Positions 37,901 to 39,448 of a stretch of 64,000 nucleotides of DNA are shown here, one piece after another. A model generated the notes under the pieces. That model ran no database searches. It was not told where the DNA came from and worked only from the letters and a program-made list of their open reading frames with translations. Origin of the DNA: Phanerodontia chrysosporium (lineage: Eukaryota > Basidiomycota > Agaricomycetes > Polyporales > Phanerochaetaceae). The position numbers and the translations under genes are program-made. The first letter of the stretch is position 1. Each line of letters begins with the position of its first letter. The stretch is taken from the NCBI GenBank assembly GCA_001910725.1, contig MJGA01000004.1:1798001-1862000 (forward strand), written 5' to 3'.

Positions 37901-39448
37901 GGACGACTTGGCCGAAGTGGAGGACCCAATGAAGCCCGTGCTGGACCGAATGACGGACGTGATCGTTGCTGCGCTATCTGGAGAGGCCAAAGAGTTCTAC
38001 AACCGCGAGTTCAGCTTCTTCAACACGGTCACGTCCATCTCTGGAAAGCTGAAGCCGTTCATTAAGAAGACCAAGCCAGAGAAGAAGGCTAAGATCGACG
38101 AGGAGATGGCCAAGATCCATGTCGATGTCGGGGTGTACCTCCCGAGTAACCCGGATGGTGTCGTCGTTGATATTGACAAGAAGTCAGGAAGGCCGCTTCA
38201 AAGTCACGCTAAGGTGGGTCGCATGGTTCGGCTGAAGGTCTGATGCTGAATGTAGCTGTACAGGCGCCGTTCATGGCGACCTTCAAAGTTCGCAAGACTC
38301 GTGTCATAGCTCTTGAAGAGAGCGACACCCTCGGAGATGTGGACGACTCGAAGCAGCAGGAGCAAGAGTACGACGTCTGGCAAGCGGCCATCTTCAAGGT
38401 CGGCGACGACTGTCGACAGGATGTGCTCGCGCTCCAAGTCATCGCCATGTTCAAGAACATCTTCAGCAGCATCGGCTTGACTGTCTACCTCTTCCCCTAT
38501 CGTGTCACAGCTACTGCCCCAGGAGTAAGCCCTCGGTCTAAGTTGTTGAATTCTACAGTATGCTGACGGTGTCTAGTGTGGCGTTATCGATGTTGTGCCC
38601 AATGCAACTTCGAGAGACGAGATGGGTCGAGCGAAGGTCAATGATCTGCTCGATTTCTTCGTTGCGAAGTACGGCGGCGAAGAGACTGTCGAGTTCCAGA
38701 GAGCTCGTCTCAACTTCATTCAATCCATGGCCGCGTACTCTGTGGCTTGTTACATTTTGCAGATCAAGGACAGACACAACGGCAACATCATGATTGACGG
38801 TGAAGGGCATATTGTTCACATCGGTGAGATCATTCTCGGTGCTTCTGTGTGACTGGTTCTAACTATTCTGTAGACTTCGGCTTCTTGTTCGACATAGATA
38901 AGTGTCCTAGTCTCTTCCTTACTCAATATGTGTAACTTATCTGCTTGTTTTTTTGTTTTTTTCTTCTTTTTTTCGCTTTTTCACGTCCTGGAGTAAGTCC
39001 CCTTTCTTGTTCACTTCGTTCAACTCATAACACTCTGACAGGGTGTCAAATTCGAGCCAAACTCATTCAAGCTGACCCATGAGATGGTCGTCCTAATGGG
39101 TGGACGATACTCACAAGGATATCAGTTGTTCCAGCAGCTCACCGTCAAAGCGTTCCTCGCTATCAGGCCGCATGTTGATCAGCTAGTCAGCACCGTGCAG
39201 CTGATGCTCGACACAAGCTTGCCGTCCTTCAAGGGAGAGCCAACGATACGCCGCTTGAGGGAACGCTTTGCCCCTGGTCTCAACGAACGGCAGGCAGCCG
39301 AGTGGATGATGGCCATCGTCCGCAACGCGCACGAGAACGTTCGAAGCACCGCGTATGATGAGTTCCAGAGGCTGCAGAATGGCGAGTTCACTAACCATCT
39401 CTGCATCGCGTGTACTTACGGTTCTCTTCAGGTATCCCCTACAAGTGA
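31992..39448 (+). CDS. STT4: Phosphatidylinositol 4-kinase STT4 (PI4K type III alpha)
   Basis: This makes PI4P at the plasma membrane, with the Ypp1/Efr3 scaffold in yeast. The protein is very large, about 1,900 residues over many exons. The long N-terminus is helical repeats (S-P-Y-H-S-L-E-L-N-I-H-Q-L-I-L). A lipid-kinase-unique/helical region follows (Y-L-L-L-W-V-P-I-P-P-V-L). The kinase domain has W-Q-A-A-I-F-K-V-G-D-D-C-R-Q-D, the catalytic loop D-R-H-N-G-N at 38769-38786 and D-F-G split by an intron. An apparent AT-AC intron and an 8-nt exon then give F-D-I-G-P-G-G-V-K-F-E-P. The last intron is GC-AG, yielding the terminus L-Q-N-G-I-P-Y-K. One base is missing in GG 31999-32000 (M-D-W-A-S-A-D-T-L) and one in CC 33558-33559 (S-P-L-P-I-F-E-F). 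Confidence 0.93.
38898..38984 (+). other. Candidate U2-type AT-AC intron in STT4
   Basis: The exon ends GACATAG and the intron begins ATAAGTG. It ends in a very long T-rich tract and TTTTTCAC, directly before the 8-nt exon GTCCTGGA (38985-38992), which is followed by an ordinary gtaagt donor and an acag acceptor at 39041. The joined codons read D-I-G-P-G-G-V-K-F-E, the family consensus. ATAAGT is the usual U2-type donor with A for G, so this is not a U12-like ATATCCTT donor. No GT-AG alternative that I tried keeps both frame and motif. Confidence 0.7.
39382..39431 (+). other. Candidate GC-AG intron in STT4
   Basis: The last intron starts GCGAGT after AATG and ends cttcag, 50 nt in all. Splicing gives L-Q-N-G-I-P-Y-K and a stop at 39446-39448, the conserved C-terminus of STT4 proteins. 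Reading through would add unrelated residues. Confidence 0.7.

Follow-up and report, generated by a model that had tools for sequence, protein, structure and literature searches.

On the plus strand of the window (the whole 64,000-nt stretch of Phanerodontia chrysosporium DNA that was analyzed), between approximately 32 and 39.45 kb, lies an STT4 gene, which encodes a PI4KA-type phosphatidylinositol 4-kinase and of which the first exons are modelled only roughly. The 298 residues of its kinase part were aligned at residues 1 to 297 to PI4KA in the PDB (E value 6.8e-98), and by this alignment over the entire kinase domain the predicted product is classed as a type III phosphatidylinositol 4-kinase (STT4/PI4KA). 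The last 400 amino acids were 96% identical, at full coverage, to a protein of Phanerochaete carnosa, and by these two comparisons the kinase part does look intact. Dynamic programming without guidance gave a gene model of 1733 codons including the stop; this method forbids stops, and thus the model is no proof that the whole STT4 gene is intact. The locus was found as one copy in the 39.0-Mb assembly. An Rfam scan of the window revealed nothing at gathering scores. The features at the 3' end of the gene are listed in Table 1. The GC-AG intron before the last exon restores the C-terminus QNGIPYK, and thus STT4 has two non-canonical introns near its end.

Table 1. Exons, introns and candidate splicing signals at the 3' end of the STT4 gene (positions are those of the window).
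Feature	Position	Strand	Basis
Kinase-domain exon, ending ...GHIVHI plus first base of the DFG Asp codon	38577-38823	+	Translation, PI4KA match
Ordinary GT-AG intron, 50 nt, GTGAGATC..TTCTGTAG	38824-38873	+	Sequence in unguided gene model
24-nt exon, ending ...GACATAG; (D)FGFLFDI plus G of a glycine codon	38874-38897	+	Sequence, translation
Predicted AT-AC intron, 87 nt, donor ATAAGTG, acceptor TTTTTCAC	38898-38984	+	Sole enumerated FDIGPGG solution; donor echoed in 39 homologue models
Candidate branch point CTTAC	38918-38922	+	Sequence; YTNAY consensus
Candidate branch point CTTAT; followed by no further A before the terminal AC	38936-38940	+	Sequence
Long T-rich stretch lacking A, reaching the AT-AC acceptor	38943-38982	+	Sequence
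8-nt microexon GTCCTGGA, completes codons G-P-G	38985-38992	+	Codons, pattern search, splice enumeration
GT-AG intron, 49 nt, GTAAGTCC..TCTGACAG	38993-39041	+	Splice enumeration; acceptor also in unguided gene model
Exon starting GGTGTCAAATTC, coding GVKFEPNSFKLT... to QNG	39042-39381	+	Gene model, PI4KA match
GC-AG intron, 50 nt, GCGAGTTC..CTCTTCAG	39382-39431	+	Restores C-terminus QNGIPYK followed by stop, as in P. carnosa
Last exon, 17 nt, including stop codon	39432-39448	+	Gene model

The 24-nt exon that follows the DFG aspartate ends ...TTC GAC ATA G, and the next bases are ATAAGTGTCC..., with ATAAGTGT as the donor of the adjoining intron. A preliminary description of this DNA had placed here an exon end GACATAG followed by ATAAGTG, a T tract and an AC acceptor, and both the sequence and the coordinates were found to be as it described; by this reading the intron begins with AT and ends with AC. 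The same description proposed an 8-nt exon with a normal gtaagt donor. This was borne out by GTCCTGGA, which is followed by an intron of the form GTAAGT...CAG and which, predicted to lie between two introns, would be a microexon. When joined across the AT-AC intron and the microexon, the frame reads HIDFGFLFDIGPGGVKFE and agrees with the PI4KA chains of the PDB at PGG, as expected from the earlier statement that the codons D-I-G-P-G-G-V-K-F-E match STT4-type kinases.

Splice choices were enumerated over positions 38874-39070 with introns of at least 30 nt, either as single introns (GT/GC-AG, AT-AC, GT/GC-AC or AT-AG) or as each of these classes combined with a second GT/GC-AG intron. PGG was retained by neither of the two single GT/GC-AG introns that were in frame and by none of the 15 in-frame GT/GC-AG pairs; the claim that no GT-AG combination keeps both frame and motif was thus upheld, and a GT-AG intron that keeps the frame only (38930-39041) does exist. 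Six solutions with AT-AG then GT/GC-AG were in frame, none with PGG. For GT/GC-AC then GT/GC-AG, PGG was found in five of 27 in-frame solutions and FDIGPGG in none; one of these solutions reads HIDFGPGG, at the cost of FLFDI. AT-AC then GT/GC-AG gave 15 in-frame solutions, three with PGG and one with FDIGPGG. The sole enumerated structure with the loop FDIGPGGVKFE was the AT-AC intron, the 8-nt exon and the 49-nt GT-AG intron of Table 1. The microexon pattern (GNCCNGGN plus GTRNG) occurs once in 38898-39041 and three times in the 64-kb window on both strands, and it arose in 0 of 20,000 dinucleotide shuffles of 38898-39041. As read from the window sequence, skipping of the microexon shifts the frame and retention of the AT-AC intron leads to an in-frame TAA. 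Thus, in this window, only accurate removal of the AT-AC intron gives a kinase.

Homologues were compared in a set of 140 long proteins (P0001-P0140; 1051-2744 aa, four under 1500 aa) taken from two lists, the best 120 of 4560 matches and the best 120 of 794; as these are the best-scoring matches, the set leans to close relatives. Among the 140 listed, FGFLFDI was followed by GPGG in 95 and by D in 36, and it was followed by anything else in none. The remaining nine have no FGFLFDI, and in every one the model is disrupted here, between HIVHI or EGHI on one side and GVKFEP on the other. Shorter proteins (the best 120 of 1509) read FDI-GPGG in 22 cases, FDI-D in three and FDI-APGG in one, with another FGF form that includes PGG in 93 and no match in one. 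The models listed therefore include 39 with FDI-D (36 long proteins and three fragments). Their second residue after FDI is E in 17, K in 15, N in three, D in three and M in one, such that its codon starts with A or G in 39 of 39 and has A in second place in all but M. Among the 32 models with K or E, the third residue is S, F, Y, C or L in 30, for each of which a T-initial codon is possible. This is as expected if the FDI-D models represent G followed by ATRAGT, read through by gene callers blind to AT donors; the N and D second residues would suit callers that place the cut at GT in +5/+6. Of the 39 models, 35 rejoin at G[VIM]KFEP, and in these the extra peptide is between 3 and 42 residues long, ends in RPG in four cases and shows no conservation; this variation in length and sequence argues that the stretch is non-coding. 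The misread protein models in these best-hit lists thus point to the same AT donor in the STT4 genes of relatives. A match to U2 donors (RAGT at +3 to +6) is read directly in ATAAGT of the window, and for the relatives it is suggested by translation only.

The 39 FDI-D models represent 37 named species or strains and one further contig (Marasmius tenuissimus occurs twice) and were placed in nine Agaricomycete orders. Suillus spraguei, Phlebiopsis gigantea, Trametes versicolor, Heterobasidion irregulare, Hysterangium stoloniferum and Tulasnella are among the sources of these read-through models. Lineage was looked up for one member each of Polyporales (via Phanerochaete), Boletales, Russulales, Hymenochaetales, Sistotremastrales, Hysterangiales and Cantharellales; we take other FDI-D models to belong to Agaricales and Atheliales, and the remaining species were placed by genus. 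All 12 named proteins of Kwoniella, Naganishia, Cryptococcus and Calocera among the matches listed read GPGG. These genera are presumably Tremellomycetes and Dacrymycetes, in which the intron could be absent or ordinary. Likewise, the GPGG models of relatives could be RNA-corrected annotations, intron losses or GT-AG versions. Among STT4 models of 2525-2744 aa, extra domains were observed in P0060 (Phlebia brevispora; PF07250/PF09118), P0118 (Tulasnella sp. 403; PF13847/PF13489) and P0104 (Panus rudis; PF00300), which are probably fused gene models.

The lgn protein P0024 comes from source contigs of at most 6235 nt that hold a 1962-codon frame and is, by this comparison of contig and ORF size, in all likelihood a transcript. 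Its identity to P0054, a genome model of Suillus spraguei, was 99.5%, with nine of 1963 columns differing, five of them scattered and four at the motif, where P0024 reads FDIGP-GGVKFE and P0054 reads FDIDEFFGVKFE (FDIDEFFG; GP-G versus DEFF). This pair nearly shows, for one species, an mRNA with GPG where the genome goes on GAY-GAR-TTY; in view of the five other differences, the two may be from different strains or sister species. All 13 lgn-only proteins among the best 120 of 4560 read GPGG (FDIGPGG), and the lgn ORFs would be transcripts by the same comparison of contig and ORF size. In P0148 (lgn), which lies on a 48,860-nt contig, the frame runs through the introns (FDIDEFFPIFLSEFSAYLIALSSTSWSKS...FFQGVKFE). 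This genomic ORF reads FDID...SSTSWSK, in which Thr-Ser-Trp-Ser-Lys corresponds to ACG TCC TGG AGT AAG, i.e., AC, then GTCCTGGA, then GTAAG; by codon count its introns are 61 and 56 nt. In six further models (P0029, P0088, P0089, P0125, P0149 and P0153) PGG is preceded by R, for which CGT fits C/GT, and the residue before R is L or P, compatible with a codon ending in A, as an AC acceptor needs. In the Mycena and Marasmius models P0125, P0149 and P0153, the AT-AC intron (69 nt by codon count) is apparently retained in full as an open frame that ends ...RPGG. No match to the 82-aa kinase exon from any relative was detected in scans of genome-contig and viral-contig collections, and no same-species transcript was found among the best 120 of 1509 fragments, of which the best were at most 85% identical save a 211-aa piece at 87%.

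Taken together, it is very probable that positions 38898-38984 are a U2-type AT-AC intron in STT4 that is old in Agaricomycetes, is spliced by the major spliceosome and is followed by an 8-nt exon with G-P-G. That splicing occurs at these AT-AC ends in P. chrysosporium itself is what we infer from the genomic and comparative evidence.

The alternative of a canonical GT-AG intron at 38930-39041, with no microexon and with FDIDKCPSLFLTQYGVKFE as the loop, is in frame, was picked by the unguided gene model, and has the form taken by many database models of relatives. It is nonetheless very unlikely. The PGG of PI4KA is lost, the matching peptide in relatives is without conserved length or sequence, and the transcript-like protein near-identical to one such model has GPGG. 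Moreover, its donor GTGTAA is weak in our judgement, and it leaves the microexon and its GTAAGT, a combination that arose in 0 of 20,000 shuffles, unexplained. The scorer behind this choice appears too crude to decide: when AT-AC introns were allowed at a penalty of -2 or -4 it chose 38898-39039 (FDIEGVKFE, again without the motif), and at -6 or -8 it chose no AT-AC intron. Even less credence is given to a GT-AC intron, in which the AC at 38984 would be a real acceptor and the donor a GT at 38904. Its product FDIDKCPGGVKFE is in frame and keeps PGG, and among non-canonical introns GT-AC is reported to rank second in frequency in Ganoderma lingzhi and Coriolopsis trogii (PMC11590231, PMC13395996), but the donor GTCCTA is by our judgement poor compared to ATAAGT, and three residues would stand where the transcript-like FDIGPGG of relatives (the 13 of 13 lgn-only proteins above) has one.

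The class of the AT-AC intron was examined by its signals and by the snRNA genes of the genome. U12-type introns have the donor consensus RTATCCTT (ATATCC) and a branch element TTCCTTRAY near the acceptor. The donor ATAAGTGT departs from this consensus in reading ATAAGT, and the branch element was not found near the acceptor; the nearest match, TTCCTTACT at 38915-38923, ends approximately 60 nt before it. Genes for U2 and U6 snRNA were detected at five places each in the genome, whereas none were found for U11, U12, U4atac or U6atac in a search that carried no positive control for these families. The U6 places, on contigs C55, C44, C58, C65 and C113, all scored 87.1 bits and spanned the full model. 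Minor snRNA genes bear on the phylum through Cutaneotrichosporon oleaginosum, which is a basidiomycete. For this species such genes have been reported (PMC7072748), and the AT-AC termini, with TTCCTTACT resembling the U12 branch consensus, would also suit a minor-spliceosome intron. Against these points stand the ATAAGT donor, the distance of TTCCTTACT from the acceptor, the snRNA search, and a survey of more than 3000 genomes that reported no minor intron of Basidiomycota as convincing (PMC10639083), and a U12-type intron is scarcely credible here. The earlier proposal of a U2-type intron is supported by the donor, the snRNA genes and this survey, and removal by the U1/U2/U6 spliceosome is the route we infer. 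In yeast, which is without a minor spliceosome, AT-AC was reported to rank next to GT-AG among the terminal pairs of a mutated intron (PMC6726248, which cites Parker and Siliciano 1993). Equally hard to credit is a true sequence GTAAGT...CAG masked by assembly errors or a dikaryon allele: heterozygosity is not visible in an assembly with one STT4 copy, but two independent errors exactly at both terminal bases would be needed, many independent genomes point to the same AT donor, and the genomic ORF of a relative (P0148) points to AC.

RNA structure around the donor was also considered. Over 38874-39060 the predicted stability was not above that of shuffled sequences (z -0.41). In the centroid structure the donor AGATAAGT (38896-38903) is paired with ACTTATCT at 38935-38942, an exact 8-nt complement that lies 31 nt downstream and that resembles the 5' end of U1 snRNA with a U opposite the A of the donor. 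Since this 8-mer turned up in 120 of 20,000 shuffles and back-translation leaves no room for a 7-nt counterpart in the retained introns of P0125, P0148, P0149 and P0153, the pairing is taken as local or chance.

The branch-point consensus is YTNAY, and two candidate sites lie within the AT-AC intron. In the proposed mechanism, the major spliceosome would treat ATAAGT as an ordinary GTAAGT donor whose first base is A, the lariat would form at an upstream branch point, and the cut would be made after the AC that is both the first AC and the first A past the CTTAT site. The terminal A and C would stand in for the usual two G residues in a non-Watson-Crick contact of the first and last intron bases, a contact described in yeast work cited in PMC6726248. 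The 8-nt exon would then contribute the residues G-P-G to the activation loop that directly follows DFG.

Cantharellales are an early branch of Agaricomycetes. With an AT donor implied in gene models from Cantharellales to Polyporales, the intron would have arisen in or before early Agaricomycetes, and the early position of Cantharellales makes an origin at the stem or base of the class probable. Either single terminal change would be expected to spoil splicing, and the intron probably persists because both ends are hard to change at once. AT-AC introns of sodium-channel genes have been proposed to be trapped in this manner, as both ends must change together (PMC2831892), and the need for two simultaneous terminal changes probably also explains the persistence of the STT4 intron. 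We regard it as improbable that the AT-AC ends and the microexon are instead kept by selection, with slow or conditional removal of the intron switching STT4 output across mushroom-forming fungi. The attraction of such a switch is that the guarded exon codes for the activation loop and that the kinase is spoiled or altered unless splicing is correct. In P0125, P0149 and P0153, where the intron appears open in frame, retention would leave the frame unbroken and could yield a variant loop.

AT-AC introns as a class are known and rare. Their reported share of introns is 0.019% across fungal annotations (PMC7072748), 0.0235% for Coriolopsis trogii (PMC13395996) and 0.03% for the SnowyOwl gene models of three fungi that include P. 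chrysosporium (PMC4084796), and a curated Ganoderma lingzhi set contains 13, of which one, in a gene encoding a zf-C4pol domain, was verified by Sanger sequencing (PMC11590231). When one (L022) of the two zf-C4pol places in the P. chrysosporium genome was modelled, no AT-AC intron was chosen there. The interest of the STT4 intron lies in its apparent depth of conservation and its systematic misannotation. If confirmed, it would be a non-canonical intron traceable through a whole fungal class, in a phylum in which the survey found no convincing minor introns, and the idea of trapping by two simultaneous terminal changes would thus be testable at one locus in many genomes. It would also account for an error that recurs in annotations of a lipid kinase at its catalytic loop, namely a wrong activation loop in 36 of the 140 long models listed; the nine other models that lack GPGG are likewise broken here. 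The preliminary description had considered an AT-AC intron beside one of the smallest plausible exons unusual. The intron appears old and class-wide, and so more than an oddity of one genome, but tiny exons are not exceptional among these fungi, with exons down to 6 bp reported in P450 genes of Phanerochaete chrysosporium (PMC1184071), and thus the 8-nt STT4 exon is small rather than extraordinary.

Several known systems resemble parts of this arrangement. The P450 microexons share with STT4 the very small coding exon, and the accessible text of that paper has no occurrence of AT-AC or of non-canonical ends (PMC1184071). Annotated fungal AT-AC introns are of the same class and the same rarity and are known to derail gene models; in their accessible parts, the reports name neither STT4 nor class-wide conservation (PMC7072748, PMC11590231, PMC13395996). 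A literature search that covered mainly the main texts of open-access papers found no report of an AT-AC intron in STT4, and this intron may already be present, unnamed, in supplementary lists of fungal AT-AC introns. The AT-AC cases of Saccharomyces (the SUT635 protointron and a mutated standard intron) are similar in that the major spliceosome alone handles AT-AC, but neither is a fixed intron of a conserved coding gene (PMC6726248). Introns of vertebrate sodium channel genes, such as SCN4A intron 21, are persisting U2-type (type II) AT-AC introns with a U2-like donor (G at +5) that are spliced by the major spliceosome (PMC2831892), as is proposed for that of STT4. They differ in gene and kingdom; by contrast, the STT4 intron occurs in a phylum without convincing minor introns according to the survey and adjoins an 8-nt exon.
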